Shown here: positions 12,865-62,899 of the stretch, one piece after another
How positions within the stretch are numbered: the stretch's first letter is position 1
How the letters are laid out: each line of letters opens with the position of its first letter
Source: Chrysophaeum taylorii
Taxonomy: Eukaryota > Sar > Pelagophyceae > Pelagomonadales > Pelagomonadaceae
Direction of reading: 5' to 3'
Assembly: GCA_029834535.1 (NCBI GenBank)
Contig: JAQMWT010000188.1
Span: 23,789 to 87,788 of the forward strand
Length of the DNA stretch: 64,000 nt
Notes under the pieces: model-generated
Databases searched by the model: none
Seen by the model: only the letters and a program-made list of their open reading frames with translations
What the model was told of the DNA's origin: nothing
Translations under genes and position numbers: made by a program

Positions 12865-13721
12865 TTTAAATGTCGAGTGCTAAGAGGGGGTGTGTGGGGG
12901 GGGCATGAAGGATGTGGGTGGGTTTGTGGGGTATGAGGGATGTGCCTGACGGGCGGAGATAAGTACGCGGGACCTAGTCGGGGTCATCGCCGAGGCGTGG
13001 GGCAGGCGAAGAGAGGACGGGCCCCGCCCGTAGGTCGTACGCATGCTGCCGCCGGACGTATGTGCGACGAAGGGTGACGTCCTGCTGGGATCGGGCGGCC
13101 TGGGCGGGGTTCCCCGAGGCGGCGACATGGGTGAGGGCGGTGAGGGCACAGCGAGCCCGGCCTAATGCGTTGGCGATCCCCCACTCACGGTAGATGCGGC
13201 GAGTTTGGGCCGCCTTTGCCTCTGTGAAGTTGGCGCAGCCGCTTGTCACCCAGGTTCGCGCAGCGATGCGCTCTGCGCATGTTTGGGCGAGAGCGTGGCA
13301 CGCCGCGCTGGCCTCACCGAAGGCACCAAAGACGAGGCCGGCGACGGTGCCGTAGCTACGTAGCCGCTGTTCGACAGGGCCCAAGAAGCCAGGCGGTGGT
13401 GCTGTACCCGGCTGGGGGATGATGGCGTCGATGCCGCGGGCGTGAGCGAGGTATTCGGAGTGGACTTGCGCTGCGCGCCGATCGACAGGCGACGGGTGGG
13501 AGGGATGGAGGGCGTGGGCGGTGTACAACGAACCCCAAGCGAGGGTTTTGATGTCGTAGAGTTGCTCCTTGTTGTCGAGCGTGGTGAGGATGTCTGGGAC
13601 GACTTGACGTCGGGCGAGATTGCCTCGGTACCGGCCGTAGAGGCGCGTGCGAATGGTAGGGGCGACGACGTCAGCAAAGATGCCGAAAACCTCGGACAGG
13701 GCTGGGATGCCGGCCTCTTTG
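12865..13721 (-). mobile_element. LINE-type retrotransposon copy 1, 5'-truncated, nuclease end preserved
   Basis: Minus-strand copy of the element also found at 31192-32975. It begins (3' end) with a conserved TTTAAA.GTCGA...TAAGAG tail at 12865-12886. It retains the last ~250 codons of the element's protein: a VVPDILTTLDNKEQLYDIKT segment followed by an Ala-rich helical C-terminus ending at 12974. The PD...D-x-K spacing is that of a PD-(D/E)xK nuclease, as in restriction-like-endonuclease LINEs. The Lys codon is 13547-13549 and is intact here. The body stops at 13721, where the longer copy continues, and a second tail fragment follows. Everything encoding reverse transcriptase is missing, so it cannot move by itself. 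Confidence 0.65.
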
Positions 13722-13790
13722 AGTGTGGGGGGGGCATGAAGGATGTGGGTGGGTTTGTGGGGGTTTGTGGGGTAGTTAGTTTGTTAGACT
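13722..13790 (-). repeat. Second LINE 3'-tail fragment fused to copy 1
   Basis: GTGTGGGGGGGGCATGAAGG and the following GGTGGGTTTGTGGGG repeat the 3'-tail sequence found at about 12890-12930. Copy 1 is therefore joined head-to-tail to another tail, with an internal deletion. Confidence 0.65.
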
Positions 13791-15367: not shown

Positions 15368-15689
15368 TGTGCCGGCAAAAACCTTTCCGACCTCTAGGGA
15401 CACTGGGGGCAACTCACCAACACGTCGGAGCTCTCTACACTCGCGGTAGGCTCGGGCTTGGGGGCCGGCTACGCGTCGCCACACACTTGTTCTCGCTCGC
15501 CTAGCCTCTCAACTTGAGGCTGGCAGTTGCTTTATGATAAACAAGATACTCTTGACAGAGAAATCAGGGGGAAGTCAGGGGAGTGACATCACTTGACACC
15601 ATGGGGAAAATAGGAAAAGGCATCCCGTTGAACGGGTGCAAAACCTTGAGGAGCGGGGTAAGCCTCAGCGAGCAGGAGTTGCCGCCACA
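15368..15689 (-). repeat. Ty3-type 3' LTR (322 bp)
   Basis: Near-identical to 25646-25970 in direct orientation. It begins TGTGCCGGCA and ends TGCCGCCACA on the plus strand. Being at the integrase end of a minus-strand element, it is the 3' LTR. Confidence 0.92.
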
Positions 15690-15719
15690 GGACTCCCCGG
15701 GTAAGAAAACGAGCTGCCC

Positions 15720-16580
15720 TCAGCGAGAGGTCCGACGAGAATCACGAGCCTTGGCCGATTGAGCGTCTCGCGAATGAATTTTCCTGTAAACGCGCACGAT
15801 GATGGGCTCGGGAACGCGTCCACTGCGCAAAGTAAACTTGGGGATTAACTCATCGATCTCGTGCGGAGCGAAGTCGGTGACACAGGGAGTGGTGCTGCTG
15901 ATGATCTTAGACTTGTCGGTGAAACTGCGACCGTCCACGTCCTTGTACTCCGGCTTGAGCTTGCGAGTAGAGAGATGTGAGGTGGATTTGTAGTAAGAAA
16001 CCTTGTCTTGCGGACCGAGATCAGAGTAGAAATGCAGAGCTACTCGATCGTTCGCGTAATCATAAGGTTCATAAACTTTGGCGATGTAAATCTTCTTGCG
16101 CCAATCGGACCGTCCACGATCGGAGATCCGAAAGACAGCGAACTTACCGTGCTTAAAATCGTCCCCGAAATATTCCGTGGGCTTAGGCACGGCTTGATCG
16201 ACCACCGGAGAAACCATCACAGGGGCGATCTGACTGACATGAACGCAACAACGTTCGGGCGGAGAGTCGAGAGACTCAATCCTGTAGGTGACAGGAGACA
16301 GGCGCTCCACGATAAGGAACGGGCCGTGCCATTCTGGTCGGAGTTTATTCTGAAGAAAAGGAATGTAAAGCAAAAGATGCGATCCCTCTTCGTACTCAAC
16401 ATCGATTTGGTCCGCATTGTAAGCGAGACGTTGTTTCTGGAGAGCTTTCTTGCGAGCTTCATTCACCGTGGCGGCGTAGAACTTCAATTTCTCGCGGGTC
16501 TCTGACACAACATCAGAGCGAGTTTTCGGCAAGCGTCGGGCGTCGAGATCGATGATCGTGTAATCAGTCGGCTGCAGCGG
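15720..16580 (-). pseudogene. Ty3-type integrase C-terminal domain
   Basis: In frame with the integrase core but separated by a TGA at about 16581-16583. Contains an EGSHLLLYIPFLQNKLRPEW.GPF segment followed by YRIESL, the SH3-like (GPY/F) region seen C-terminal to Ty3 integrase cores. The remaining ~150 residues up to 15720 are unassigned. The upstream in-frame TGA makes translation of this part as a fusion impossible in this copy. Confidence 0.75.
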
Positions 16581-16583
16581 CTG

Positions 16584-18360
16584 TCAATTGAGACGAAGCG
16601 TGAACGGGGATATCTGCGTACCCGGAATGAACTTGCGATTGTAGCAGAAAGCGAAGCACTCTGCAAAGTCAGGCAAGTCCGTGATGTTCCGGTCTTGATG
16701 ACATGCACGGAGAAAAGAATTAATAAAGCGGTTGACTCGTTCAGCTGGATTTGCCTGAGCATGATACGGAGTCGTAGTGCTACACCGCATGTTGAAGAGC
16801 TGACGAAACTGTTCCATCAATTTGTTGACGAACTCTTTATCATTATCGGTACGAATAAACAGATGCAAGTACCCCTTGAGGAAGATATTCGCGAGGAAAG
16901 ACTCGAGGATGGCCTCAGCAGTCATGTTGTGCAGCACGTCGAGAATCAGGAATTGAGAAAACGGAGCGAAAAACACGAGGTGATACGTCTCGGGACCAAC
17001 ACTGGGTAAAGGTCCAAACAAGCCCATGCAGAGGACGGCGCAATCGCCGCCATACACAGGCTGCTGAAGAAGACCAGTTCTCTTGGGTTCTGGCGAGCGG
17101 GACCTCTTACACACCAAACAACCAGCGATGTATCTGCCCACTTCATTAGACATGTGGGGCCACCAAAAACGTTCAAGTATCGATTGCACGGTACTGTCAC
17201 GACCCATGTGACCACCATTGAGAGGGGTATCATGGTAAAGTCGAATGGTGCGCTTCTGTAAGGTGCGGGGGGCGACTACCATCGGATGTACATCAGTTGC
17301 AGCATGGTAGAGGACACCCCTCACAACTTGATAGCGAATGTTAGCTTCTTGTCGGCTAATAGTATGTCCCTGAGCCATGCGATTACGAATGTCTTCGCAA
17401 GTAGCATCAGTGATCTGTTCTTTGGCTATCTCTTCAAAAGTCAAATTATCCGGGATCTCGTCGATGTACTCTTGGTAATCATCGGCATCACAAAAAATGT
17501 TCGGTGGGGATCGCAGACGATTCTTCTGACGTTGTCTCGTGGCGTGAGACGTGGCCAGCTGCATCGGGTCGTCGCGATCATCTTCTTTTTCCTCCTCAGG
17601 CAACTCAGTCGTGATAAACGACAAAATGACATGACATCCAGCCAGTGGTACTCCTTTGTCATCAATGGGCCGAGGAAGCTCTTGGCACACCAAATAAGCG
17701 TGATTCAAGGGTTCACCAAACTCATCCGTCTCGATGACGTGATCGATAGGATTGCGAGAGAGGCAGCCAGGGATACTCATTCCCGGTGACTTCCCTGGTT
17801 TGTAGCCCAGTTCGGGATCAAAGTTGGCCAGGCGCATCGCCCATCGAGCCAATTGTCCTGACGAGTGCGTCGCCTTCCGCAAAAACGTCAGATTGCGGTG
17901 ATCCGTCTCGAGGACAGTTTTGTGCCCTTCAATGTAAGAGCGAAAATGTTCGAGATAAAGAATAACTGCCAGTAGCTCTAAACGGCGGGGCTCATAGTTC
18001 CGCGTCTCTTTCGGCACAGCTCGGCTCCAGTACTCAACCACTCGTTCCTCTTGTGTCACCTTTCCGGTGTCGTCTGTGACTTCCACGAGTTGGAAAAGAT
18101 ACGCGCCCAGGCCGTCCTTGGGGGCATCCGAGCGGATCTGAAAGGGAAGATCGTAGTCAGGGTGATAGACTCCGCGAGAGTCCACCAAGGCTTCGATGAT
18201 CGTGCCCCACGCCTTTTGGCACTCGGGCGTCCACTTGAACGGAACGCCTTCGAGACACAATCGCCTCAACAGCTCCACAATCTTCGAATAATTATTCACA
18301 TATCTGCGGCAGTAGTTGCTCATGCCAATAAAGATCGAATCTGGGTCTTCGGAGACGTAT
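16584..18360 (-). pseudogene. Ty3-type RNase H and integrase
   Basis: The first ~180 residues are RNase H: SDAPKDGLGAYLFQ, then RRLELLAVILYLEHFRSYI and LETDHRNLTFL. A linker is followed by the integrase zinc finger (H-x-GGHMGR...IAGCLVCKR, an HHCC arrangement) and the catalytic core. The core shows TDNDKEFV and HAQANPAERVNRF, giving the second Asp and the Glu of the DDE triad. The first Asp is not seen: the segment normally 'D-L-x-GPLP' reads MGLFGPLP, with Gly at the Asp position. The join to reverse transcriptase needs a frame change near 18370 (around CCCGGG). Both lesions indicate an inactive copy. Confidence 0.88.
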
Positions 18361-19532
18361 TCGGCAGCGTCCCGGGAATCGGCATTCGCTGCAACGCTTC
18401 CAACGTCTTAGGATTCGGCTTCAGGCCTTCCGGAGTCGAAATATGTCCCAGAAACTCGACATCATCTTTGAGAAGGTGAAACTTTGCTGTTCGTCCACTA
18501 TATCCTCTCTGTGCTAAGTGGAACAATACTTCAATCAAGACTTGCAAGTGACTGTGGAGGTCGTCCGATCCCATCATAATGTCGTCGACAAACGCGACCA
18601 AGTCCTTATACATCCATTCCGATAAATCGCTGGCCATCTGCTTGCAGAAGAGGGCACCTGCTGTTTTCACTCCCAGAGGCAAGCGCAAGAAACTGCGTGC
18701 TCCGAGTGGGCTAACCATCGTGACAGCGTCCTGAGCAGCGGTGTCTAAACGCAGGTTGTGGTATCCCCATCGAGTATCAATGCACGTCCGCCAACGGCGC
18801 ATGGCAAGGAAAGCCAGAGCATCATCTTGCCGAATATTTGGCCAACTATCATTGACCAGCTGATCGTTGAGCTGACGTAAGTCAACTGCAGCACGAAAAG
18901 CGTTCGACGTCCCGATCTCTGCTCCCTTCTTAGGCAGCATCAGCACAGGAAATCCCCACGGAGATTTCGCCGGTCGGATGACTCCATCGCGACACCACTC
19001 GGTGATCTGCTTCCTAAGACAATCTAGTTTTGCTGGCGTCAACCGATAAGGCGTCATCTTGATCGGTCGTGGGTTTGCGTCTTTTAATCGTAGGGAAACC
19101 GGCGGCGAGTCCACTGGTCTCATAATCGGGTCAAAAATGGCCCACGCGTATTGCATGCAGTGGCGCAACATCATCTTCGCATCTTCATCTAAATGCCGAT
19201 TATCGGGAATTCCCAGTTCTAAAACAACTCTCGACTTCTTCTTTCGTCGGAATTTCGACTTTCATCGCTTCGTTGGCCTTGACGTGCTCCGGAGTCTGCG
19301 GCAGCGGCGCTCCGTCCGCATCGCGCGGTGCATCCTTCCACGGCACATCGAACTTTTCTTCATATTTAAACCTCACTTTAGGATGGCTCTTATTGACCTT
19401 TTCACCTTTGACGCGCACACTTGGTTCGCTCCTCACTTTCGGCTCCCGATCAGGTTCAGGATCCGGCGGAACGTCCAGTTTTGGTTGTCGGGGGGGGGGC
19501 AGCAGAGGAAGTATGAGCCGTCCCCGGCGCAT
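18320..19532 (-). pseudogene. Ty3-type reverse transcriptase
   Basis: Reverse transcriptase palm and fingers are clear: RPIKMTPYRLTPAKLDCLRK, then a VIRPAKSPWGFPVLMLPKK segment, RAAVDLRQLN, IDTRWGYHNLRL, and the active-site FVDDIMMGSDD (Y/F-V-D-D). LPLGVKTAGALF replaces the usual LPFGL..AP..F. The first Asp is in TCIDTRWGY. The 110 codons upstream (19200-19532) are charged and Pro-rich and link to the methyltransferase; 19174 and 19200 lie on either side of a frame break. The product would copy the element's RNA; this copy needs frame changes at both ends. Confidence 0.9.
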
Positions 19533-19759
19533 CTATTGGAAGCGGATGTAAAGGTGCTTCTGGCGGTTTCCATTTGGTGCGATCCAGGAGATCTTCTTTG
19601 ACACCCACTCAACGACACGAGTACGCGCATTCAACAGCAGGACCTGTACGTGACAAAGGGTGGTGTCGGTAATTCGCAGATATTGCTCAGAGGGTCGATC
19701 TGTAGGGCTCAGCGCGGTATCAAGGACCTCGCCACTTTGGCGGAAACCTCGGGTCACGG

Positions 19760-20660
19760 AGTTGTGCAGATCGAGTGCTAAAATCGCAAAAGTGTCTGGG
19801 GGCACGACGGACGCCAAGTGCCTGAACGAGTCTGTCTTAGATAAGCCAACCCAATCAAAATCCAGCGGCATCGTGAGCAACTCTGCGGTCATTTTGAGAG
19901 TCAAAGGCTGAGTGTCCGAACGGTGCGGTCCTAGTCGAGAGGAACTCGCGTAACGGTGTAAGCCGTATCCGTGGCTTCTCGGGACGAGCCTAAATTGTTC
20001 AGCTGGAGCAGGTTTCGTTGTCTTCGTAACCTAAAGCTGCAGCGAATTTGTGTTGCATATTTGCACAAGTTTTTGGAGCTTCTCGCAGGTGCAGCGGTTG
20101 ACTGGAGACCAACAACCGCACGCGACAGCTCATCAAATTGGGCGTAATGTCGTGAACATTGACGACGTACACATAAGGGTGTAAACGCGCAATGTAAGAA
20201 ATAATCGAAGCTTCTTGTTCAATCAGCCACATCATGAAGCCAGCCATTTTGCACAGCTTCATCTTCCCGTGAGTGGTCGTAACTCCTTCGGGACATCTCT
20301 GGAAGTCAAATTGCAGAGTGCTGAATGAACGCAGGGCGGGGACGCGATGCACATCGACGATGACCATTCCGCTTCGGGCAATTAGGCCTTTATCAATCGA
20401 AGGGTCGTTATGTAGCGTCCGCAGAGCGTGTGCTGAACCACAGGTACCTTCGGAAAATTCTTCTGATGGATCTTGTTGGCAGCTGCTGAAGAGTCAAGAG
20501 CAAGGACGACTCGAAGCGACGTCCCGCACAACTCGTTCGCTCGTTGCAACCCTAAAGTACTGCCTCCGGCGCCGCTGAATAGCATCACGACTTTGCGATA
20601 CGTGATCGGCAGCCATTGGACGTTTTCAAAATCTTCGGCGAATCTCGCCTTCTGTAGCAT
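19760..20660 (-). pseudogene. Cytosine-5 DNA methyltransferase domain inside the Ty3 element
   Basis: Cytosine-5 methyltransferase motifs occur in the right order. Motif I is VVMLFSGAGGSTLGLQRA (FSGAGG at 20562-20579), the SAM-binding loop, followed by VVLALDSSAAANKIHQKNFP (motif II). Motif IV is IASPPC with the catalytic Cys codon at 20331-20333; it is in the same frame as motif I but after a TAA. A motif VI equivalent WLIEQ is at about 20220, and a motif VIII-like CRVRLLVSS at about 20120. Motif IX, PLTLKMTAELLTMPLDFDW, starts at about 19910, and motif X, FRHLASVVPP, is at 19797-19826. Three frame breaks or stops inactivate it. It lies between protease and reverse transcriptase on the same strand, so it was part of the polyprotein. 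Target preference cannot be read from the sequence. Confidence 0.85.
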
Positions 20661-20679
20661 CTCGGCACTTCTTTTCCTC

Positions 20680-22364
20680 TTCGTCGGATCGTCGGTCGAA
20701 ATCGTCGTTGCGAAGCGATCTTTGACGGGAGGTCACGTCCTTTTCGGCGGAGTGGGCCGTAGTTTGTACCGAGCTCAAAAGCATCGGCGAGGGGACTGAG
20801 TCGCATTGCGTCTTATGGCTTGCGACCGAAACAGTGTACGACAGGCTTGCCTTATCATAGGTTGCTTCACAGTCCTTCGTTAATTCTTCAACCGTAGAGA
20901 CGTTCAACTCGTCCTCGTAACGAACAATATCCCCGAGGGCGAGCATTTTGCCTTGAGTAATCACGGTCGGCACATCTTGGGTGGATGAAATCGCGACGCG
21001 AGCGGCGGACTTGTCGTGATCTTCGGAAGAGGAACACATTCCATCGACTATCCCGAGTTGCTTGTATCCAGCGGATGTAGCAACGAAAACTTGCCCGTTT
21101 CCAAAAATCTCGGAAAGGGTAACTGGTACGCTGTAAGTGCGTCCAGGTTCGACCTTCATCGTGCGCGCAGCGTAGGCAACCACTTCATGGGCAGCGCTGC
21201 TCGAAACTTGAGAAGGCGTAACGGTCGAGACTCCCCAATTCGTCGAAGCTACCGCTCGTTCCGGCGGTGGACGCTGGAGGTCTCTAATCGTGCACAAGCG
21301 AGCGTAGACTCGATCCTCGACCGTGCTCATGCTCTGCTCCATTGCGGGGTGCTGGTGACCGTAAATCGGTACTACCACAGGGTTGCGCTCATAAGTTGAT
21401 CTGAACGTCAAGACTGGGGAATCGACTCGTCGATCCTGCACCTTTGACCACTTGCGCCCGTATGCTATTTGTGTGCGGTGAAACGTAGTGCGATCCTGCG
21501 GGTAATCCACTACGGCTCCCAGCATTCGAATATCGCGCGCTCCCACTAAAAATAAATTGTTCGTATCAGCCACGATGGCAACCACCGGGACTGCATCGTC
21601 GTCCGCAAGAGCGATTCGTAACGCGGCCCATCTGTGGATGGTCGTCTGGTTAAACCCGACCCATACAGGGTGCGCTCGACTGGAAGTTCGCCTTGGTCAA
21701 AGATAATCTTGTCCTTCGCCAGCTTGGCGACCATCTCGCGGCAAATGTAGGAGACATCAGCCATCCCATCAACACCAATGGTCGTTGCAAACTTCGGCCC
21801 GTCTCGTCTTTTATAAATATATCCAACCATGAACGTCAGTGTGCCAGTGTCCAGACAACCGATGGTAACGAGGTCTTCCTCGATCGTTTCCCCGTCGCGC
21901 GGCGACAGAGCGGTATGATAGCATCGCCCCTTCGGATCCGCGTCGCCCGGCATCTGCATCGTCACAGCTGCCGTCTTGTGCATCGCGCGTCCCACCTCTG
22001 AATCTTCAGCGGCTCTTGCAGCAGCATCTTTGTCTGGTGGCTCTCGCTCTTTTTCGGTCGCGACCTCGGGTGGGCTCGGCACTTCGGCGGCTTCCTCATA
22101 TCCAAGTTTCGCTGATGCCTCGGAGTTCTCCCATATGGCGCTCATTTCATCTTCCCACGACACTTCCATCGAATCGTCCTCGGGTCGTCGATCTCCACTT
22201 CCGATTTCAATCTGGTCTCGGCTCTTCGCGGCATCTTCGCTGCAACTCAGCGATCGACTCCTTCTTTGCTCGGGCGGTTTCTTCGGCAGGATGCTCTGAA
22301 CCTTCGTCCGCGCTTGCTGAAAGCTCCACGTCGTCTTACTTCCGCAAACACTGTTTGACTTCAT
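20680..22364 (-). pseudogene. Retropepsin-like protease region of the Ty3 element
   Basis: The segment TIGVDGMADVSYICREMV (near 21730-21780) fits a retroviral-type aspartic protease, where the consensus is 'VDTGAdvS.I'; here GM replaces TG. About 60 residues on, after a frame change, NLFLVGARDIRMLGAVVDY fits the C-terminal 'fLlG.d.L....a.vD' strand. Between these and the methyltransferase is a ~250-residue spacer with no recognised domain. Upstream, 22364-21950 encodes a long acidic Glu/Asp/Lys-rich linker. Confidence 0.6.
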
Positions 22365-22756
22365 CCAGCTCGCGTATCCATCATTCGTGCCCTTCTCAGC
22401 TTAATCGGCGCTTCGACGGTCCTCATCGGTCACCGGCAGCGAGTTCTGACACTTCTCAATCGGAGGTACATTCGCTTCCTCCTTCGTTTCATCGGGCGTT
22501 TCTTGCAATCGCTCGTCCGTCAAGTTGGGCGTATCTGCCCACTTCTCCTCCATCGGCGCCTCTGTGGTCTGATCGGCCGTGACCAAAATCGTTTCGGGGG
22601 GGGGGGGCAAGCAGAAAAAGAAGACGTCGTCCCCGACGTCAATTCGGTTGACATGACGTCGTCAGCGTGATCGTCCCTGAACGACGCACACAGTGACGAA
22701 CTAGGGGACACTGGATCCTGAAGCGCTGGGTCGTCATCCTCTGAATCTGAGTCTTC

Positions 22757-25028
22757 CTAGTAGCGTGCAGATTCCAAATCTTTGAGTGATATTCCTTCCA
22801 GAACCTGTGTGGAAGGACACCGAACGATCCGAGCGTCGGTGGTCGTTTCCTCCGGTTGCGAACGATAGCTGCTCGTCGCTGCGGCCTCGGCAACATCATC
22901 GGAGTGTCTGGCGGAGCGTGTCTTCGGGTAAATAACAATTCCCAATGGCAACTGCGCTTCGCCCGGGGCTTGGAACGCAAAGGTGGCGCTCGAATACCCG
23001 GAACTATCTTGGTATCGGCCTCCGTCGTATTCGTCGTCGCGCGGGCGACATCGTCTGCGCCGGCGCGAAATTCGACCGGGGCTCCGGCTATCTTGGCGAC
23101 GGCGGGGGCTCGGACTTGGTGTCCGGCTGTTGAGCCGATGGTCGGGGCTCTTACTTCGGCGTCGGCGTGATGATCGTGTAGAAAACGATCGACCGTCTCT
23201 CGGCCGTGTAGACGACGACTTGTCGTCCCTCATACTTTTGAATTCATCCCTCATCGACGCCATAGCGGATCCGATCTCGAAGAGCGCCATCTTGAGGTCA
23301 TGAGTGGATTCCGATCCGCGAGTAGCATTCGAACTAGCTGCATCTCGTCGCTTCTGCCACTCGCCGCGGGGTATCGGTCGTTTCTTATCCTTCGTAATGC
23401 GCTTAAACATGACGCAATTGTAGGGACTCGGTTCTCTATTGCAAATCACGCGACCCCCATACTCATCTTTATCGTATGTAGACCAGAAAAAAAAAGGGAA
23501 AAAAAATCCACAGTCCTTGCACGAAAACCGGCACCATTCCTTGGGGTCGTTTTGGATTCGTTCGGTCTTCGCTGGCGGTTTTCCGGATTAACTTTCGTCT
23601 GCTGATCTGAGGTCATAGCCCGACCTCCCCGCCCTCGAGGCGGTTTATTGGATTTCTGATTCGAGGGCGTCCGTTGACCTTGGTCATTTTCTTCCTCGAT
23701 CATTTTCCGGAAATCATTTTCTAAGCGCCACCGTCGATGTGAACGTAAGATGACTATCGGGATGGCCGCTCCTCATAGTCCGCACGCGGGTTCGTAAATC
23801 CTGGGACTCTAGCCCACTGACCAAATAGTCGATGATGTCGACATCATCCATCGTGCGCGTGGAAGCGGAACAAAAAGCCAACGCTTTCGTCTGAAACTTC
23901 GTGCAATACGTCTGCACGTGTCGTTCCCCGCTCTTCTTGGGGACCGAAGCTTGGGTGACCGTACCGAACTTGTCGAGGAGCTCTTGCGGCGTGCTCGGCG
24001 GCCGGCAGGTCGATCTGAAATATTCTTAAATGCGTTCGCAGTATTGTTTTTTTCAGGCGGCGGATTCGACGTACCGGAGATCCGTGGTCCTTGTCGTCCG
24101 TATCCAACCTGAGGTAAAAGGACAGAGTGTGCTCTAAGTCTTCGCACAACTGCTCGTATTTATTCAAATGCTCTTCGAAAATCGGGGCGACCGTGTCACG
24201 CAGGTGCACCGGTAGTAAATATCGAAGCTTTTCCACCGAGTAGTGGTCTTCCGACAACGAGCCCATCACTGCGGCAGAGTTCAGGTTGAATTGTCGCTGA
24301 TCGCGACCGTCAATCACTAATTTAAAACTGTGGGCTTTAAGTCCGGAATTGGGGCGGCGGGTTCTGTGCCGGTCGACTCTTTCGAATGCACTCGCAAAGG
24401 TTTCCGATAGATCCTTGAAAAATTCTTTCGCCCCGTGCTCTTTCTCTTCTTGTTCCGATCTGGGACGGGTTTCTTCCCTAGTTCCTTGGTCGGTTCTCGA
24501 TTCGGTCCGCCTCGCGGGAGATTGACTCCCCCGCCCCGTACTCCTCGATCGTCTCGCAGGCCGATCGTAGCTGCTGGATTGTTGGGTGGCTCGTTGTTCT
24601 TCTCGCTCTACCCTCCATGCTTCTTGCTTGCGTCGAAACTCGTCGATCTGCGCGCAATGCCTTGGGATTGGCTCGTTGTTGCCGCAGCGCTTCCTTCAAC
24701 TCAAAAAATTCTTGTTGGCGCTCTTGTTCCATCTTCGCCTCGGATTCTGCTCGTTCGCGATCGAATCTTGCGGTTAACTCTTCGTTTTCGCGTCGTATAC
24801 GCTCGAGACTTTCCCGAATTTGCACTCGGTGGCCCGTTTCCGTCTCGCCCGTGTCGCGTTCGCCGCGCTCGGGGTCCCCGTACTCAATGGTGAGAATATG
24901 CCGGGCTCTACCGGTACTTCTTTCGCGTCGACGTTTTCGTCGCCGCTAGCGCCTATCTCCACGCGGTTTGCCTCTGCGGCCGCGGGAATGGGAGGTTGTT
25001 CTTCTTCATGCTCGTCAGCGTCCTCCAT
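22757..25028 (-). pseudogene. Gag region of the Ty3 element
   Basis: Several frames together look like Gag. They include a coiled-coil helix (IRRENEELTARFDRERAESE, 24478-24825) and a capsid-like helical segment with EHLNKYEQLCEDLEHTL and YCTKFQTKALAF plus IIDYLVSGLESQDLRTRV (23714-24317), as in Retrotrans_gag proteins. A basic Arg/Ser-rich tail follows (22757-23449). No CCHC knuckle was found. The frames are broken repeatedly, so this copy has no intact gag. Confidence 0.6.
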
Positions 25029-25204
25029 TCTGTCGATGATGCTGAATCTCCAGGTTCTGCACTTCTTTCGCGTCGACGTTTTCGTCGCCGCTAGCGCCTA
25101 TCTCCACGCGGTTTGCCTCTGCGGCCGCGGGAATGGGAGGTTGTTCTTCTTCACGATCGTCAGCGTCCTCCATTCTTCGATGATGCTGAATTTCCAGGTT
25201 CTGC
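24916..25204. repeat. 145-bp tandem duplication in the gag leader
   Basis: ACTTCTTTCGCGTCGACG starts at 24916 and again at 25061, and the following sequence repeats with few differences to about 25204. On the minus strand it duplicates the MEDADEHEEEQPPIPAAAEA coding segment. Confidence 0.9.
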
Positions 25205-25645
25205 TGGGATCCGTCACTCCTCGTAGTAACTAACTAACTTCAGACCTCTCCCGAGCATGGGAGCCAGGCCGTAGCACGCGTCTTAAATCTCAACGCGGTC
25301 CTTCACTGCCCAATCCAAATCTGGGAACAGTTGTTGCGAACTCCTCGCCCGCTCAGCACTCTCTTGGTGCTTCTGTGAGTAGCTAACTCACGCGCTCGAC
25401 AGCTTCCGCCGTCCTCGCGACTTCCCGGGGTTCGCGCGTCGGTATGTTCCGAATCGCGCGTTCGTCGTCCTCTCGACGTACGAAACAAACAAATTTCGCG
25501 TAGAACTCTCCACGTCAATCGACCCTCTGAACTCGGCACGCTTGATCAGGGCGTGCACGCGGATCCGCACCGTATCTCGTAGTGCGTGCGGGCACTCGTT
25601 CGTCGGCGACCGATGTACCCGCCGATCTCGTACTCCTCCACCACG

Positions 25646-25970
25646 TGTGGCGGCACAAACGTTTCCGACCTCTAGGGACGGGGGGGCACTCACCAACACG
25701 GCGGAGCTCTCTACACTCACGGTAGGCTCGGGCTTGGGGGCCGGCTACGCGTCGCCACACACGTGTTCTCGCTCGCCTAGCCTCTCAACTTGAGGCTGGC
25801 AATTGCTTTATGATAAACAAGATACTCTTGACAGAGAAATCAGGATGACGTCAGGGGAGTGACGTGACATCACTTGACATCAAGGGGGAAATAGGAAAAG
25901 GCATCCCGTTGAACGGGTACAAAATCTTGAGGAGCGGGGTAAGGCTCAGCGAGCATGAGTTGCCGCCACA
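25646..25970 (-). repeat. Ty3-type 5' LTR (325 bp)
   Basis: Begins TGTGGCGGCA and ends TGCCGCCACA on the plus strand, a perfect 10-bp terminal inverted repeat. Direct copy of 15368-15689. As the gag-side LTR of a minus-strand element it holds the promoter. Confidence 0.92.
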
Positions 25971-31191: not shown

Positions 31192-32975
31192 TTTAAATGT
31201 CGACTGCTAAGAGGGGGGGGTGCGTGTGGGGAGCATGAAGGATGTGGGTGGGTTTGTGGGGTATGAGGGATGTGCCTGACGGGCGGAGATAAGTACGCGG
31301 GACCTAGTCGGGGTCATCGCCGAGGCGTGGGGCAGGCGAAGAAAGGACGGGCCCCGCCCGTAGGTCGCGCATGCTGCCGCCGGACGTGTGCGACGGGTGA
31401 CGTCCTGCTGGGATCGGGCGGCCTGGGCGGGGTTCCCGAGGCGGCGACATGGGTGGGGCGGTGAGGGCACAGCGAGCCCGGCCTAATGCGTTGGCGATCC
31501 CCCACTCACGGTAGATGCGGCGAGTTTGGGCCGCCTTTGCCTCTGTGAAGTTGGCGCAGCCGCTTGTCACCCAGGTTCGCGCAGCGATGCGCTCTGCGCA
31601 TGTTTGGGCGAGAGCGTGGCACGCCGCGCTGGCCTCACCGAAGGCACCAAAGACGAGGCCGGCGACGGTGCCGTAGCTACGTAGCCGCTGTTCGACAGGG
31701 CCCAAGAAGCCAGGCGGTGGTGCTGTACCCGGCTGGGGGATGATGGCGTCGATGCCGCGGGCGTGAGCGAGGTATTCGGAGTGGACTTGCGCTGCGCGCC
31801 GATCGACAGGCGACGGGTGGGAGGGATGGAGGGCGTGGGCGGTGTACAACGAACCCCAAGCGAGGGTTTAGATGTCGTAGAGTTGCTCCTTGTTGTCGAG
31901 CGTGGTGAGGATGTCTGGGACGACTTGACGTCGGGCGAGATTGCCTCGGTACCGGCCGTAGAGGCGCGTGCGAATGGTAGGGCGACGACGTCAGCAAAGA
32001 TGCCGAAAACCTCGGACAGGGCTGGGATGCCGGCCTCTTTGACGCTGCCGTGGACGCAGTCGAGCTGGCCGTCATGCCAGGTGGTCCGCGCTCCTCCGCG
32101 GTTGACAAGGTTGGCCTGCGTGAGAAGCACCTTGCCGTGAGCGTCGAGAACGACGTCAGTGCCCAGAATGCGAGTGCCCACGAGGCCCAAACAAGCTGGA
32201 GAGGGTAGCCAAAGTACTGGGCACACATCTCAGCCCAGCAGCGGTTGGGGATTTGAAGGCCAGAGCTGGGCCACGAGCTGATGAACGTGGTCGAGAAGCG
32301 ATCCCATGAGGACGCCGCTACTCGAAGTGCTTCGGTGATGGGAAGGGTGGCCGCAAGGCGCTGGAGTGCAGTGGCCCGAGCTGTCTCGCGCTGGGAGGTT
32401 AGAGCACGCTGGAGTTGGGGTATGAGCACGGGTGTCGAGATGGTGGGGTCGACGAGGACGCCCATGGAGACGAATTCGTGGGAGAGAGGACCGTCGACGA
32501 GATGAACGTTGGCGGGGTCGCCGGAACCAGCGCCGCCGTGGGAAGCCAGCGTGGTACGGAGATCATCCCGAAGTCCGTCCCACGCAGTCTCGAGTGCCCG
32601 CCCCAGGCGGCAACCGGATGCGAGGAGGTGGTGCCAACGGTGCAACTCGTTACCTGTGCGAAAAGAAGTGGCACCCAGGACCGAGGCGAGGCGGGGGAGG
32701 TAGCCAGGGACCTCCAAGGCACCCGTAGGATCGCGAAGGTCGACGAGGTGTGGGAGGGCCTGGGCCGCCGTGCCAACAAAGGCGGCGGGGCTGAGGTCGG
32801 CGCAGGAGCGAATGCCGCCACCCCCACTTCGAGCAGGAAGACGGAGGCGTTGGAGGACGATGCCGTTGGAGTCAAAAACCTGACGCGGATCTGCGCCAAG
32901 TGCTGTGGCGACGAAGCTGAGGGCGGCAACGTCGAAGCGGCGGAGCGCGCTCAAGGCATTGGTGGGGTAGCAGTG
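31192..32975 (-). mobile_element. LINE-type retrotransposon copy 2, 5'-truncated and mutated
   Basis: The 3' tail is at 31192-31213, homologous to copy 1. The minus-strand coding region starts inside the end of a reverse transcriptase (SALRRFDVAALSFVATALGA, about 32950). It continues with RLPARSGGGGIRSCADLSPA, the 'LP...GGLGLRS' connector typical of LINE proteins. A later HGK...WHDGQLDCVHG segment and the PD-(D/E)xK-like nuclease follow. A frame change is needed near 32190, another at about 31980 (GGG versus GGGG in copy 1), and the DIK motif reads DI-stop (TAA at 31868-31870). The palm domain is absent. Copies 1 and 2 otherwise agree closely through 12870-13721. Confidence 0.75.
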
Positions 32976-34810: not shown

Positions 34811-35824
34811 CCGCTCGCTCATAAATTCTAGAATTTTTTTTGAAGAGACGGGCTGCAGGAAGCACGCAACGGAAGAGTTTTTAAACTAGCCGACCTCGAA
34901 ATGGAAGCGCGGATACCAGGTTCAGTGGTAGAGTTTTTGAGAAAACGCATGGTTCGTCGTCGTTCGACGTTATCCATCGCGCAGAAAGCATGTTGTGGAT
35001 ATATTAGTAAAGGGCGAGCGATGAAAATCAACGAAGAGAAGCAACGTCGAGACTAACTCGAACTCCCTTGTCCGGTGTGGGTCTTTTTCTTGTTTCCTGC
35101 CTGGTTCGTCCTCATGCTAAAACCCTCTCGAAAGGAAAATAAATCCATGCACACTCACGTCGCATCGCGTCCGCAAAAAACCAAGCTTCAGACTCCCAAT
35201 ATGTATGCTCACAAAGCGAGCTAAACCTCTCGTTCACCATGCCGCAGAAGCAATCCCGTGAGACTTCCACCAGAAGCCATGAGACTTCCACCCGCGATGC
35301 CACAGACGTGAGCTCGAAAACTCGTTCACGAAGCCGCAGCAGCGAGCCCATCAGACTCCCGCGAGCGAGTCAGCTCATAACGGAAGATCCAAGCGCACTC
35401 ACCGCCGCCACAGACCCATCAGTGCACGGTTAAGGGACGCCACCGCCACCCCGGCAAACAAGTTTCGAGCGACTGCTCGATCGTGACCATCAGCTTTATA
35501 TCTTGGAAGACGCGTCACAACCAACGCAAACCATGACCATTTCATATTCGTGGAGCCGACAGTGATTGAATGCATAGTGTGCAGGAGGAAACGCGCATGG
35601 GTCTGTCACAGACACATCCTCCAATGCCCGGAACATCCACCTAACAGGAGACGATGACACGCGTGCTGCGTCACAAAATAAGAAAGAAAACCCAAAACAA
35701 TCAGAGTTTCGCCACAGCCATGACTTTTGACTCGGGGATCACATTACCTAGGTACCTGAAAAAAGGGGAACGGGTGTCGAAGCGCCCTCCCGGCGCTCTC
35801 CACCCGCCCAGAGCATGCTGAATT
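34811..35824. other. Intergenic upstream of the giant repeat protein gene
   Basis: No confident gene. A 64-codon plus-strand frame (35239-35433) with Ser/Arg/Thr-rich repeats (RETSTRSHETSTRD) resembles the disordered N-terminus of the gene at 35825 and could be an upstream exon or duplicated remnant, but nothing proves it. Confidence 0.4.
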
Positions 35825-38800
35825 ATGAGCCGCGCTGGCACCGAGAGACGGCCGACAAACAGCACTCCCAGGAGAACCCGTGAGCCGACCAACGTCAGGG
35901 CGGCGTCGCACGACCAGCGATCACGGCGGAACAGCGAACCCATCGGGGAACCTAGAGCGTCGTCGATTTCAACGTCGAGTGACCCCAGCAAGGGGCCGAA
36001 GATCAAGTACCACATCCACCGCGCCGGCGAGGACCTTTTGTCGGCGACGATGACGCAGGCGCGCGCGGTTTACAAGCAGTCGCTCAAGCCCAAGTTGTTG
36101 GCGGTGCGCGTGTCGAGCGCGCGGCGCGAGGTCAAAGCCAAGTCGAAGATGCGAGAGTGCCTCATCGAGTCGGTTGGGAAGCTGCGGGCGCAGAACATGG
36201 CCTTCGAGCACACCTTCGAGACCCCCAATCTGGGTTTCACCATCGCGCTCGCGCGCCACGGCGCGGAAGGGAGGGCGTTTGTGATCGTGAGAGAAACGTC
36301 GCCGGCGTGCGCGTTGTACCCTGATGGACTTAAGCCAAGCGACGAGTTGCTGTCGGTCAACTCGGAGATCATCGTCGATCCGGACCCCGAAGCGTTCGAG
36401 CGCGTCCAGACCCTTATCACCAAAGCCGAGCGCCCCATCACGCTTTTGTTTGTCAAAGGGACGCTCCGTGACGTCGTGTTCCAAGAACAAGAGGAGCGTC
36501 GAAGGATGTTTGGGGAGGACCGCAAGCGCGCCGGGTCGGACGCGCGCAGCGCGTCCAAGGCGCGGTTCTGCGAGGCCCAGGCGTCTTCGGCCGCTGAGAT
36601 GGCGGCCAAGCGCGTCTGCAAGCCCGAGGCGCGGCTCGAGGCTGTCGCGCGTGCCTTCATCGCCGCGCGCGCCACCGCTTCCGCCGCAAACCTCGCACGG
36701 GCAGATCCCGGCGACCCGCGCGACGCTGCGTCGGAACGGCGTGCCGCCGAGACGGCGCGCGTATGCTACGAATGCGCAATTAGCGCGCACCGCCATGCCG
36801 ACGCTGCGCTGCGAGGCGCGCTCGAGATCGTGTGCGACGTCCTACTGAAGCGAAGCGTTCTCGCCAGCAAGTGCGCGCGCGCGGCACGCATTGAGGCACA
36901 GCTTGCCCTCGCGCGCAAGTCCCAAGTCGTACGCGCTCATACCCCCTCAACCACAACGGCGACACCAGGGGCGATGCCACCGCCTGTGCCAGAAGGAGGA
37001 AAAGAAGAAGACAAGTTCGGGCCGCCGGCGACTTCGCCAGAGAAGTCGGTTGAGGCAGCGAGCATCATAGGAGATGAAAACGAGGAAAAGGACCCATCGA
37101 CGCTCGCGCGCGTCCCGCCGTCGATCTTACTCGGCCCCGGCATGCACGTGCGCGTCCATGGCGTTAAGAAGGCGGCCTCTTTCAACGGCCGCGTCGGCGT
37201 CATCCAGTCTTATGATTCGACGTCGAATCGCTTTCTCGTCAAATTCGATGACGGCGCGCTCGTCGACATCAAGGACTCTAATTTGTGCCCAGCAGAGGAG
37301 TTCGCGCCGATTGTCGGTGTTGGTTCGCGTGTGGCTATTACCGGTCTCCGCTCGCAGCTCAATTTCAACGGTATCCAAGGCACGGTCGAGAAATGGGACG
37401 ACGAAAACAAACGCTTTTGCATACGCATCGATGGCGGAGAGAAGTGCGCGCTGAAGCCTGTAAACGTCGAACCCCTCGCGAACCAGCTTGCTTCGCCGGC
37501 CGCGTTCGTCGCCAGCATAAATTCGAAGGTGCAGCGAGCACAGCTTGCTCTTCGGGATGCGGTTGAAGCCAAGCACGAGCTCTGCAAGTGGATAGCCGCG
37601 CTATCGCTCGCCGCTGCCTCCGGTAGCATTGATGACGATGACGACGACACCACTAAGGGAGACGACTTTGACCCGGACGATTTCGTCGACAGGCCGATGG
37701 CGTTGATCGGGGTCACCGACTGGCCCGAACTCAACGGCGTGCGGGGCGTCGTCGAAGCCTTCAACTCTCAAACAAGGCGATTCCTCGTCCGAGTCGACGA
37801 CGGTTCCATCTTCTCGGTGACCCACAACAAGCTGGCTCCGCTCGACCGGGGAGGCGGTGCCGCTGTGAAGAGCCACGACCTCATGGCAGAAACAAAGAAG
37901 GATGTCAAGCTCGCCAGGGAAGCGGCCAGCGCGGCCATTGCATCGTTCCCCGAGCACAACCTCAACCACCAGCCCGAGCATCAGCTCCTCGACAATAACG
38001 TGATTCCGACTGATGTCGCCGCAAGCATTTCCGATGATCATGATGACGATCATGGAGTTGATGATGTTGACGATGGTGCCTCGATAGGCGCCCAGGGCGA
38101 ACATGACTTCACGAGTAGTGCAGCGGCAGACGCTTTCGATCGTGTGAATCGCGAGGGTCCCGAGCCGGGCGACGTGTTTGTGGACGACGCAGACACTGTG
38201 AGTGAAGACGGCAACTTGAGCGAAGCTGTGACGGCCACGACGAGTCCGTCGCCGCGATCACCCCCTAGCCAATATGCTGAATCGGAGAGCGCAGGTGGCC
38301 CACTTGTTGGGTCGCTTACTGGTACCTTGGACAAGGACGAACTCGTTGCCTTCGACGCATATGACGATTCGAGGTCGCTGCCTGAGAAGCGAAATGCGGA
38401 TGATCGCGACGACGACAGTTTTGGTGATGGCCAACTTGGGGAGGTGGTGCCTGTAAAAGCCTTGGCCGAAGTTATCGAGCACGCGGCGACCAGTACAGAT
38501 GAATCAAATGCACAGGCTTTCCACGATGGCATGGGAGCGTGGCAAGATGCCGATGACCGACAGGACGTTTTGAGAGAGCTCGACGAATACCCGGCCTCTA
38601 AACCGCCTCTTGATTGTGACGAAAATGCACAATCAGACGAACTTAAAGCAGTTATGCTTGCTGACGACAACGACGCCAACTACGAAACATTGGACCCCCT
38701 GATAAGCTGCGTTGGACCTCAGGTCGGCGCAATTGATGAATCGCGGGACATCTCAGATGAACCGTGGCTGCCCGTTCTTTCGGAGCAAAGCAAAGACGAG

Positions 38801-41800
38801 ACCGGCTACGCGGTAGAACCAGTAAACTCGAAGAGCGTCGAAGAGCCGAACCACCCGAAGAATATCCCGGCGTCAGACGAGCAGTCTGGGGAGATTGATC
38901 TTGACGACGAGGTATCCAACGATTTCTCAGATGAACCGCGTCTGCCCGTTCTTTCGGAGCAAAGCAAAGACGAGACCGGCTACGCGGTAGAACCAGTAGC
39001 ATCGAAGAGCGTCGAAGAGCCGAACCACCCGAATAATATCCCGGCGTCAAACGAGAAGTCTGGGGAGGTTGATCTGTATGACGAGGCATCTAATGAATTC
39101 TCAAATGAAGCTTGTCTACCCGTTCTTTCGGAACAAAGCAAAGACGAGACCGGCTACGCGGTCGAACCGGTACCATCGAAGAGCGTCGATGAGCGCAACC
39201 ATCTGAATAGTCCGGCGTCAAACGAGAAGTCTGGGGAGGTTGATCTGTATGACGAGGCATCTAATGAATTCTCAAATGAAGCGTGTCTACCCGTTCTTTC
39301 GGAACAAAGCAAAGACGAGACCGGCTACGCGGTCGAACCGGTACCATCGAAGAGCGTCGATGAGCGCAACCATCTGAATAGTCCGGCGTCAAACGAGAAG
39401 TCTGGGGAGGTTGATCTTTATGACGTGGCATCTAATGAATTCTCAAATGAAGCTTGTCTACCCGTTCTTTCGGAGCAAAGCAAAGACGAGACCGGCTACG
39501 CGGTAGAACCAGTAGCATCGAAGAGCGTCGAAGAGCCGAACCACCCGAATAATATTCCGGCGTCAAACGACAAGTCTGGGGAGGTTGATCTGTATGACGA
39601 GGCATCTAATGAATTCTCAAATGAAGCGTGTCTACCCGTTCTTTCGGAACAAAGCAAAGACGAGACCGGCTACGCGGTCGAACCGGTACCATCGAAGAGC
39701 GTCGATGAGCGCAACCATCTGAATAGTCCGGCGTCAAACGAGAAGTCTGGGGAGGTTGATCTGTATGACGTGGCATCTAATGAATTATCAAATGAAGCTT
39801 GTCTACCCGTTCTTTCGGAACAAAGCAAAGACGAGACCGGCTACGCGGTCGAACCGGTACCATCGAAGAGCGTTGATGAGCGCAACCATCTGAATATCCC
39901 GGCGTCAAACGACAAGTGTGGGGAGGTTGATCTTTATGACGAGGCATCTAATGAATTCTCAAATGAAGCGTGTCTACCCGTTCTTTCGGAACAAAGCAAA
40001 GACGAGACCGGCTACGCGGTCGAACCAGTACCATCGAAGAGCGTCGATGAGCGCAACCATCTGAATAGTCCGGCGTCAAACGACAAGTCTGGGGAGGTTG
40101 ATCTTTATGACGAGGCATCTAATGAATTCTCAAATGAAGCGCGTCTACCCGTTCTTTCGGAACAAAGCAAGGACGAGACCGGCTATGCGGTCGAACTGGT
40201 ACCATCGAAGAGCGTCGAAGAGCTAAACCACCCGAAAAATATCCCGGCGTCTAAAGAGCAGTCTGGGGAGGTTGATCTCGACGACGCGGCATCGAACGAA
40301 GTCGGCAGACGTGAGGGTTTTCAAAGAGAGATTCACGACGAGAGATTCATCGGCGTTGCTGTTTCAGAGCCATTCACTGAATCTGACAAAAAAGGCAACA
40401 AAACGGAATGCAACAAAGCCCAGTCAGAGCCGCATGTTCTCAAGACTAGCACTGTCTCTGAGATTGTCGTGACCGATCCTGGAGTCGAAGACAGGGAGCC
40501 GCGAGCCTCGAATGACGCGGCGTTGCGGCGTCCGCGTAGAGTTGTGCTCATCACCGCCGACACAGATTGGGTGCAACCCCCGACCACGGATGATGTCGAT
40601 AAGTTGGGAGCTGGAAATGAACAACAGACTGGAAATTTCGCCGCTTTCGAATCGGCTCCTGTAGCTGTTGGGTTTCCGAATCAGGCACACCCGGCACAGG
40701 CAGCATTGGAAGGTGACGATGAACTGCAAGGAAATGATTTCTCCGCTTTGGAAGACCAACTGGTTGCGGTTACGTCAATGAATCCATCATGTTATCGGGA
40801 CGATGCTTCGTCTCTGTCATCGCTGGCAGCACGCGATGAACCACTAGAAGATGATTTCGGCTCTTTGGAAGAGCATCTGGCTTCCGACGTCGAACCAGCT
40901 CCTGTTGTTGTCGGGTCGCTGAGTCATCATTGCCTTCTAGGCGACGCGGTGTCCCAGTCAGCATTAGCAGCTGGCGATGAATCACGAGAAGATGATTTCG
41001 CCTCTCTGGAAGAGCATCTTGCTTCCGATGTCTCATCGGCTCCAGTTACATCCGGGTCGATGTATGAGCCGCGGCCGTTTTCTCGAGATGACGCTACATA
41101 TCAGCCAGCTGAGGAAAGAACTCACGTGCCTCTATCGCCGGAAGCGACGAGTGAAATACAAGCCAGCGTGAGAAGAGACTCACTACCGGTGCGACACTTT
41201 CCTAACCTACATGCTCATCCCTTGTTCGCTTTCGCGCGAAGCCAGAGACAAGACTCGGAAGAGGACGATGAGAAAGCGAGTCATGAAGCCGTGGGCGAGC
41301 AAGAAGAGGAGAACATGCCTACGAGAAGAAATCTTCTCGATGAGTGGGCTACCTCTCTAGCAACTCGATTGGAAGAGTCGAGTCGGATGTCCCATCAACA
41401 GGTTGCGCGAGCAAAGGAAGAACGGCTAAATGAACTGAAGAATGCAGAGCGAAGTCGATATCCAGGCTTCGAACCCAGCGCGGAACCGAGCCGAGATAGA
41501 CGAGGGACACCTCGATGGGCTGGATTCGACATGCTTGGCTTTGAGACGTGGGCAAAGCTCGAGATATCCTCCTCGATCTCTGCTTCGGAGGACGAAACGG
41601 TAGCTATCCCAGAACCGGAAAATGTCATCACCGAGAACGAATCACGTGATGTTGAGACCGAGTACGTGGAAGCGAGCTTGTTGCAATCGCGGCAGCAACC
41701 AGAGGGCAAGTCGACAGCTATCCCAGATCCGGAACATGTTATCACCGAGAACGAATCGCATGATATTGGGGCCGATTGTGTGCAAGCGATCTCGTTGCAA

Positions 41801-47571: not shown

Positions 47572-48495
47572 CTAAGCGGTGTCTTCTAGGTCTTCTTCCT
47601 CATCCTTGGTGTCGTCGTCGATGTTGCGAAGATCCGGAAAGTCCCAGGCGTTCTCGGTTTCCTGGTTGAGCTGGATTCTGGTGACATCGCGGTGGAGCTT
47701 TTTCTGCTCTGTCAAAAGCTCGAAGATTTTGTTTTTGATCGGGACAATTTTTGAGTACTGGAAGTGGGCGTGGATCTTGATGGAGGGCGTGGCGACGCCG
47801 TCGTCGCGGTGGCCGATAATGGCGAGGGGAAGGATAAGGTCCTTGTGGGGAAACTGGTCGAGGAGTGTCTCGAGTTTCAAGTCTGCCGTGGCTCGACGGC
47901 GCTGGCGTCCTCCCGCGTGGGCGTCGCGCGCGAGGTCTTCCATGATCTCGAGGCGGAGCGAGGCTCTGGCTTTCTTTATAGGCGCGAGGGAGAAGGCTTG
48001 GTCGAAGACGAGGCGCTCGCCCGCGTCCATCTCCGTGACTTGGCGGTGCTTGCGGGCGGGCTTCGAGACTTGGGGTGGCGGACCGACCGAGGCCGTTGGA
48101 TCGTCGAGGTCGCGGACGTGGGCGATGACGCGCACGGCCTTGACGTCGCGGACGGGATCGTCAAAGCGTCCGACGCCGAGGGCCTCGACGACGGTTACGG
48201 TGAGCAAGCCGAGGGCGAGGTCGGGTTCCTTGCGCGAGTAGGAGACGCCGAGGTCCTCGCGGAATATCTCGGCGCGGCAGGCGACCTTGTACTGGGATCG
48301 GAGGAGGTTGAGGTCCTTGTCGACGGTCAGCAGGCGCCTTCTGAGAAACTCGAGGCGTCGTTCCTGAAATTTGGTTAGTTTGTCTACGCGGAGGGCCGCG
48401 ACGCTCAGGAGGTCCGAGTCGATCGCGCCGCGCGACGCCGCGACATCTTCCCTGTCGCCGGGACCGGAAGCCTCGCCGCCGCCACCACCAGAACG

Positions 48496-48530
<35 letters not shown>

Positions 48531-55222: not shown

Positions 55223-55414
55223 CCAAAGAAAGAAAGAAAGAAAGAAAGAAAGGATTAGGACGGCGAGTCCTTCGCCGCGTCGTGTTGCCCCATAGGATAC
55301 CAAGTCTTTTTTTTCGTCAGTTACACGACAGCAAAAAAAACTAGGGTTTTTGTAAATGGTTGACTGCCGCGAGGGTTTGGGAGTGTGGGTGTGTTCGGGG
55401 AGCGAGAAGGAAGA
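55223..55414. promoter_or_regulatory. Divergent promoter region with GAAA repeat
   Basis: 192 bp between the K+ channel and fumarase starts. Contains AAAG repeats at 55226-55251. Confidence 0.5.
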
Positions 55415-62882: not shown

Positions 62883-62899
62883 GCTGAGGGGTGCTCAGT

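Follow-up and report, generated by a model that had tools for sequence, protein, structure and literature searches.

A divergent cytosine-5 DNA methyltransferase domain in a Ty3/Gypsy retrotransposon family of the pelagophyte Chrysophaeum taylorii

Introduction

DNA methylation is a common means by which hosts silence transposons, which makes transposons that carry a DNA methyltransferase (DNMT) puzzling. Here we describe such an element, a Ty3/Gypsy long terminal repeat (LTR) retrotransposon with a C5-cytosine DNMT domain, from Chrysophaeum taylorii, a pelagophyte and thus a stramenopile alga. It is located in a stretch of 64,000 nt (contig JAQMWT010000188.1 of assembly GCA_029834535.1, positions 23,789 to 87,788), which is referred to as the window; coordinates are those of the window unless another sequence is named.

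The closest described systems are those of De Mendoza et al. (2018; PMC5890265). That paper reports DNMTs under purifying selection for Symbiodinium (LINE and DIRS elements) and Klebsormidium (a Gypsy element) and shows de novo CG methylation by retrotransposon DNMTs. The initial annotation of the window had referred to captures in a few algal and dinoflagellate lineages; cases are known from dinoflagellates and one charophyte. KnitGypsy-Dnmt3 from Klebsormidium nitens is similar to the element from C. taylorii in that the DNMT is part of the Gypsy Pol frame, is present in several copies, and is under purifying selection (with a ratio of nonsynonymous to synonymous substitution rates, Ka/Ks, below 0.2); it differs by its Dnmt3-class enzyme, its host from the charophyte/green lineage, and its DIRS-like repeats (PMC5890265). 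The C. taylorii element is flanked by ordinary LTRs, occurs in a stramenopile, and has IEQ as methyltransferase motif VI. Similarities to SymbioDIRS-Dnmt3 and SymbioLINE-Dnmt from Symbiodinium concern the captured DNMT, for which hundreds of copies, saturated synonymous change, and Ka/Ks below 0.2 are reported there. These elements belong, however, to the DIRS and LINE orders, are found in an unrelated host group, and have a DNMT and a reverse transcriptase (RT) which are equally constrained (PMC5890265). Another publication mentions DNMT3 in "LTR Copia" elements (PMC12344493); the 2018 paper which it cites reports Gypsy elements instead.

A DNMT retrotransposon from a pelagophyte or any other stramenopile was not found in the literature searched, whose range excludes most subscription journals and also Iyer et al. 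(2011), a paper cited for RT-linked DNMTs. The published C. taylorii assembly comprises 71 Mbp in 702 contigs (PMC10366177), and the accompanying paper uses neither "retrotransposon" nor "transposable" in its main text. The case described here belongs to the kind of DNMT retrotransposon known from De Mendoza et al. (2018) and differs in the host group, in an additional Copia case, and in the divergence of its domain.

The DNMT domain in the window copy

The DNMT domain of the window copy is encoded on the minus strand at 19599-20630, a range obtained with the domain of genomic copy L029 as tblastn query, and is located just upstream of the RT. All methyltransferase motifs named in the initial annotation were recovered on this strand in the order given there: motif I (FSGAGG, 20562-20579), motif II (LALD, 20493-20504), motif IV with the putative catalytic Cys (SPPC, 20331-20342), motif VI (IEQ, 20215-20223), motif VIII (RVRLL, 20110-20124), a motif IX-like stretch (PLDFDW, 19851-19868), and a motif X-like stretch with Ser for the usual Asn (RHLASVVPP, 19797-19823). 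The canonical forms are ENV for motif VI and Gly-Asn-x-Val for motif X. The motif IX-like stretch faces, in an alignment, the motif IX region of methyltransferases from viral contigs.

The window copy is dead, a point absent from the initial annotation. Its DNMT is distributed over three frames in four pieces (20286-20630, 20020-20289, 19937-20020, and 19599-19937) and has one in-frame stop, which lies between motifs II and IV. The four pieces show 66-85% amino acid identity to a genomic copy with an open domain. The Pfam domain DNA_methylase (PF00145) scores 20.3 bits on the motif I piece, which is under the cut-off of 22, and was not matched by two other open pieces of the window DNMT.

The DNMT is a regular part of a Gypsy family

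The genome of C. taylorii (G000; 70.8 Mb, 697 contigs) was searched for related copies. With the RT of the window as query, at least 127 RT places were found. Gypsy DNMT places numbered 40 in a DNA search (plus one short piece) and 116 in a protein search and amount to at least 145 distinct places, a count in which a few loci may appear twice through contig duplication, as matching places on C10 and C297 suggest. No stop occurs within the match for 92 of the 116 places found at the protein level, a list which is biased to good copies. A listed DNMT is present upstream of 69 of the 127 RT places, on the same strand and within 3 kb, mostly at a distance of about 358 bp. Upstream DNA was examined for 16 RT places, 12 picked mainly for long open frames and four because they had no listed DNMT, and DNMT sequence was present at every one of them, in broken form at several and truncated at one; seven of these places are outside the 69 listed pairs. 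The DNMT domain is a regular part of this Gypsy family.

The full 348-codon domain is open in 13 of 26 fetched copies. A copy on contig C5 has an open frame of 3067 codons (C5:520422-529622), in which the DNMT (524289-525332) and the RT (523014-523931) are in phase, with RNase H and integrase coming after the RT. The part 520422-528400 was examined as sequence, and the remainder follows from the computed frame length.

The copies fall into two subfamilies, which are separated by a synonymous divergence (dS) of about 1.65. Ratios of nonsynonymous to synonymous divergence (dN/dS, Nei-Gojobori) were computed for 15 copies with a single unbroken tblastn match, stops in L041 and L042 being skipped by codon. 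Across subfamilies, the mean for the DNMT is 0.078 (range 0.056-0.110, 54 pairs), values which are approximate because dS is close to saturation. Such low ratios indicate that the DNMT has been kept by selection. The mean is 0.25 within subfamily 1 (36 pairs) and 0.28 within subfamily 2 (median 0.17, 15 pairs, one of which gives 1.45 at a dS of about 0.008); higher values are expected here, as the mutations of dead copies are counted in. The initial annotation had suggested looking for an intact frame under purifying selection in other copies, and the C5 frame and the ratios across subfamilies provide both. They also substantiate its central claim, that a Ty3/Gypsy element has captured a DNMT: the domain is multi-copy, shares an open frame with the RT, and is under purifying selection.

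In four copies of subfamily 1 (L029, L031, L032, and L035), a second reading frame within the DNMT is open over 255-259 codons and is longer there than in all of the 500 synonymous shuffles made for each. It has 79-162 codons in the other five subfamily-1 copies and 49 codons in four subfamily-2 copies, in which it is no longer than in shuffles. As it is short in other copies and at chance level in subfamily 2, the idea of a role for this frame was dropped.

Affiliation of the Gypsy domain

An alignment (A1) of 12 of the 26 fetched copies was made, covering both subfamilies, with L039 lacking the first 18 columns. Of the 14 copies not included, 12 are interrupted by frameshifts or stops, while L031 and L032 are open and were omitted without reason. 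All 12 aligned copies agree in C103, E141, Q142, R173, and R175, among which are the putative catalytic Cys, Glu, and Arg, as well as in PPC of motif IV and RVR of motif VIII; FSGAGG is found in 9 of 12, being altered in L033, L036, and L039.

Family assignment by Pfam is borderline. For four further Gypsy copies, the PF00145 scores are 23.7, 21.5, 24.3, and 15.9 bits, so that the profile check suggested in the initial annotation came out mixed, with two of four copies above the cut-off of 22 and the other two, like the window copy, below. Low as these scores are, neither of the outcomes which the initial annotation had named as refuting it, absence of the domain from other copies or a region unrelated to DNA_methylase by profile, was observed. 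Two methyltransferase genes of the host, Dnmt2 and a Dnmt5-like gene (L009 and L010), belong to the same family and reach 67.1 and 61.2 bits, compared to 15.9-24.3 bits for the four copies.

Profile comparisons were more telling. With a Dnmt2-class profile, A1 aligns over columns 15-134 (motifs I-IV) at 76.3 bits, compared to 17.6 bits for its reverse and at most 25.2 bits for 20 column shuffles. A second profile was built from 80 methyltransferase frames, all of which M.HhaI had retrieved from viral contigs. To this profile A1 aligns over columns 13-293, the motif IX/X region included, and reaches 39.7 bits, while none of 10 shuffles exceeds 18.6 bits. As a yardstick, host Dnmt5 reaches 53.0 bits to the Dnmt2-class and 93.1 bits to the viral-contig profile. 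With profiles from single sequences or shallow alignments, the Gypsy domain reached 30.2 bits to host Dnmt2 and had no match to host Dnmt5; such comparisons missed even the relation between host Dnmt2 and Dnmt5, and deep profiles were used instead. In a tree, the Gypsy domain groups with Dnmt2, but weakly (86/89); its branch is more than 5 changes per site long, and long-branch joins are flagged. Tree and profiles cover the classes tried, which do not include Dnmt1, 3, 4, and 6. The PDB yielded weak matches only. Dnmt2 was among them (E 0.2-0.77), and in the profile search unrelated proteins had E values of the same order. Viral contigs searched with the 12-copy alignment, and viral and genome contigs searched with host Dnmt2, yielded no result. 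The initial annotation read IEQ as a hint of a distinct subfamily: the motif is real and present in 12 of 12 copies from both subfamilies, and the tree placement beside Dnmt2 is weak.

We are highly confident that the Gypsy domain is derived from a methyltransferase and has been captured and selected in the element. It is probably an active enzyme.

The Gypsy element of the window

The element extends over 15368-25970 on the minus strand (10,603 bp) and has a broken coding region. It is enclosed by a 5' LTR at 25646-25970 (325 bp, ends TGTGGCGGCA...TGCCGCCACA) and a 3' LTR at 15368-15689 (322 bp), both on the minus strand and with TG...CA ends. The LTRs show 93.75% sequence identity over 320 aligned bases (Kimura two-parameter distance 0.065). 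The flanks AGTGA and GGTGA match in 4 of 5 bases and may represent a 5-bp target-site duplication, seen in this one copy only. On the same strand, Pfam detects the RT at 18323-19261 (RVT_1, 48.2 bits), RT_RNaseH together with the integrase zinc-binding domain and the integrase core at 16587-18407, and the C-terminal part of the integrase at 15723-16583 (Integrase_p58_C, 35.3 bits). The integrase core is below the Pfam cut-off in the window copy, unlike in the C5 copy, and the order RT, RNase H, integrase is seen by Pfam both in the window pieces and in the C5 copy. The Ty3/Gypsy setting within a single LTR pair, as initially annotated, is thus confirmed. Placement of the DNMT between protease and RT holds with respect to the RT, the DNMT being upstream of it; the protease half of this statement was not confirmed, a protease having been matched neither by Pfam nor in the PDB in the residues searched. 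An open piece at 21549-22400 (minus strand) contains the N-terminal half of a retropepsin-like pattern, recognized by eye and without profile support; the active-site string of this pattern, VDGMADVSYI, is unusual.

The 5' part of the element contains a 116-bp unit twice in direct orientation at 24916-25176 (minus strand); the two copies show 98% identity, and their starts are separated by 145 bp. A TGG two bases inside the 5' LTR (noted for 25606-25645, minus strand, next to this LTR) may mark a primer-binding site. The element is flanked by direct repeats (12886-13722 and 31216-32042), of which 300 nt are identical and other pieces show 97-100% identity. They are related by a constant spacing of about 18.32 kb, as if a segment had been duplicated.

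A Ty1/Copia family with its own DNMT

A scan of the genome with PF00145 gave at least 57 places (from the best 123 of 474 candidates), 20 of which were fetched. Two of these are host Dnmt2 and Dnmt5, and the other 18 carry another DNMT-like domain. A representative frame of 1952 codons (L025:3697-9552, from contig C96 of G000) codes for this DNMT, followed by an integrase match under the cut-off and then by RVT_2, which identifies a Ty1/Copia element. A protease-like string, LIDGGASFCF, was noticed by eye ahead of the DNMT, and the stretch of about 400 residues between DNMT and integrase has no Pfam match at E <= 0.1. The family has 126 matches at about 117 places, and its DNMT has a mean dN/dS of 0.137 (10 pairs, from 5 of 8 copies).

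The Copia element resembles the Gypsy element in being an LTR element with a DNMT upstream of other Pol enzymes and under purifying selection. It differs in its RVT_2-type RT, in the position of the DNMT ahead of the integrase, and in its motifs, which read LPCQ and ENV. For the Copia DNMT, comparison with the viral-contig profile yields 80.0 bits (maximum of 10 shuffles, 22.4 bits), and comparison with the Dnmt2-class profile 34.5 bits (33%). Profiles of the Copia and Gypsy DNMTs have no detectable similarity to each other (20 bits, probability 0.9%, with a shallow Copia alignment). A single capture for both families was rejected on these profiles; given the shallow Copia alignment, a remote common origin is conceivable.

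None of the listed Gypsy DNMT places is among the at least 57 PF00145 places of the same genome. Because the Gypsy domain scores near the Pfam cut-off and is absent among the PF00145 places listed, surveys based on that family may miss such captures.

A tblastn search of the window with the Copia DNMT found no match. The window does contain another Copia RT (61059-62894, minus strand; RVT_2, 124.5 bits), which is 35% identical to the RT of the DNMT-carrying Copia element.

Methyltransferases of the host

Host Dnmt2 is 100% identical to CTAYLR_008533 of C. taylorii. The Dnmt5-like gene codes for DNA_methylase and SNF2 domains, and its best PDB match is 7r76 (E 2.8e-261), labelled DNA repair protein Rad8 in the match list. 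This entry corresponds to Dnmt5 of the fungus Cryptococcus, a CG methyltransferase of the maintenance type, and the host gene is named on this basis.

Other features of the window

Long open frames at 47575-51186, 53804-55702, and 55345-57165 match the anoctamin, ion channel, and fumarase families. The latter two overlap on opposite strands (55345-55702). An open frame of 2591 codons (35822-43594, plus strand) has no Pfam match at E <= 0.0001.

Discussion

We lean towards the view that a divergent DNMT has been captured into Gypsy Pol and likely acts on new complementary DNA (cDNA) of the element itself. Being made together with Pol, the DNMT would be present in the particle, at the site of reverse transcription. 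There it would most likely methylate cytosines of the new cDNA or of the RNA:DNA hybrid, before or at integration. A copy marked in this way could pass as host DNA or evade a check on unmarked DNA, and integrated copies would not need to remain methylated. The own cDNA as the main target is a tentative part of this proposal.

Several observations weigh against it. The constraint on the DNMT is about threefold weaker than that on the RT: for the same seven copies (10 cross-subfamily pairs), dN/dS is 0.019-0.029 for the RT and 0.058-0.094 for the DNMT, which contrasts with the similar constraint on both in the earlier elements (PMC5890265). Motif VI is atypical, IEQ in 12 of 12 copies, with the Glu kept and the canonical Asn-Val replaced, and so is motif X, an ASVV stretch without Asn, even if it aligns to the motif X region of the viral-contig enzymes. 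The PF00145 match is confined to the part with motifs I and II. No relatives were found among 5.8 billion proteins (with a 633-residue fragment at E <= 0.001 and with the 12-copy alignment at E <= 1), a search in which whole polyproteins could not be found because proteins far longer or shorter than the query were not candidates, and in which word limits applied as well. Release of the DNMT by proteolysis, as postulated in the initial annotation, is not supported, as no protease was detected by profile: Pfam found none in the window pieces, and sequence searches of Pfam and the PDB found none in 899 residues upstream of and into the DNMT start of one copy. For the SymbioLINE DNMT tested in yeast, no methylation of the DNA was seen (PMC5890265), so that capture and selection do not prove activity on DNA.

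Nor is there a footprint of methylation in the integrated copies. CpG is not depleted: its observed/expected ratio is 1.25 for the element, compared to 1.23 for the remainder of the window. The frequency of CpG transitions among copies, 0.064 in subfamily 1 (10 copies) and 0.088 in subfamily 2 (15 copies, that of the window included), does not exceed that of GpC transitions (0.066 and 0.092, respectively). These data give no sign of lasting CpG methylation and hence no support to the earlier idea that the element methylates its own copies. Algae with Dnmt5, however, can hold dense CG methylation without losing CpG. In the pelagophyte Aureococcus, Dnmt5 is tied to heavy linker methylation (PMC9998398). 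The footprint test is therefore a weak one.

The absence of a CpG footprint would also fit a Dnmt2-like enzyme acting on RNA, be it the genomic RNA, the transfer RNA (tRNA) primer, or another transcript. Such a reading agrees with the best profile score among the classes tried (76.3 bits for Dnmt2 compared to 39.7 bits for the viral-contig profile) and with the weak tree placement on the Dnmt2 side, and an RNA substrate has been raised for LINE DNMTs by De Mendoza et al. (PMC5890265). We nevertheless consider it unlikely, since the long branch with its flagged joins and the missing classes (Dnmt1, 3, 4, and 6) weaken the affiliation, and motif VI is unlike the ENV of Dnmt2. Somewhat less likely still is a DNMT which restrains the element or marks its copies for silencing by the host, with CG methylation upheld by host Dnmt5. 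This is one of the proposals made in PMC5890265, and the host has a suitable gene with DNA_methylase and SNF2 domains; yet the copies show no CpG decay, with the reservation just made for Dnmt5 algae, and the more than 100 places, many of them with long open frames, also speak against it.

An equally improbable reading is that methyl transfer has been lost and that the domain is retained as a structural, S-adenosylmethionine-binding, or nucleic acid-binding part of Pol. The weak Pfam score, the altered motifs VI and X, and a constraint below that of the RT point in this direction, while none of the 12 aligned copies has lost the putative catalytic Cys, Glu, or Arg, in spite of a dS of about 1.65 between the subfamilies. 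Finally, with the window copy alone, at 20.3 bits, chance motif matches or a one-off insertion might have been suspected. Chance is ruled out by the number of places (at least 145), purifying selection, and a profile score far above that of shuffles, and a one-off insertion by the same number of places together with DNMT sequence at 16 of 16 examined RT neighbours; the probability left for either is negligible.

The capture of a divergent DNMT that acts on the new cDNA thus is the reading which we prefer, and C. taylorii should be well suited for testing it. Its genome is compact (71 Mb). The genome paper describes Nanopore R9 runs and one whole-genome-amplified library (PMC10366177); together with PacBio data (SRR22085545, project PRJNA892039), such libraries could show what is methylated.

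As a single stramenopile harbours two such families, one Gypsy and one Copia, both under selection and both with no fewer than 100 places, the acquisition of DNMTs by retrotransposons looks like a repeated pattern. A more far-reaching interpretation, which we regard as unlikely, is that the Gypsy and the Copia family each took a different DNMT into the early part of Pol, the Gypsy enzyme representing a new lineage which, of the classes compared, comes closest to Dnmt2 and may act in the particle on RNA, primer tRNA, or an RNA:DNA hybrid rather than on chromosomal CpG. If this were true, DNMT capture would be a repeated adaptation to nucleic acid modification during reverse transcription, not to chromatin.
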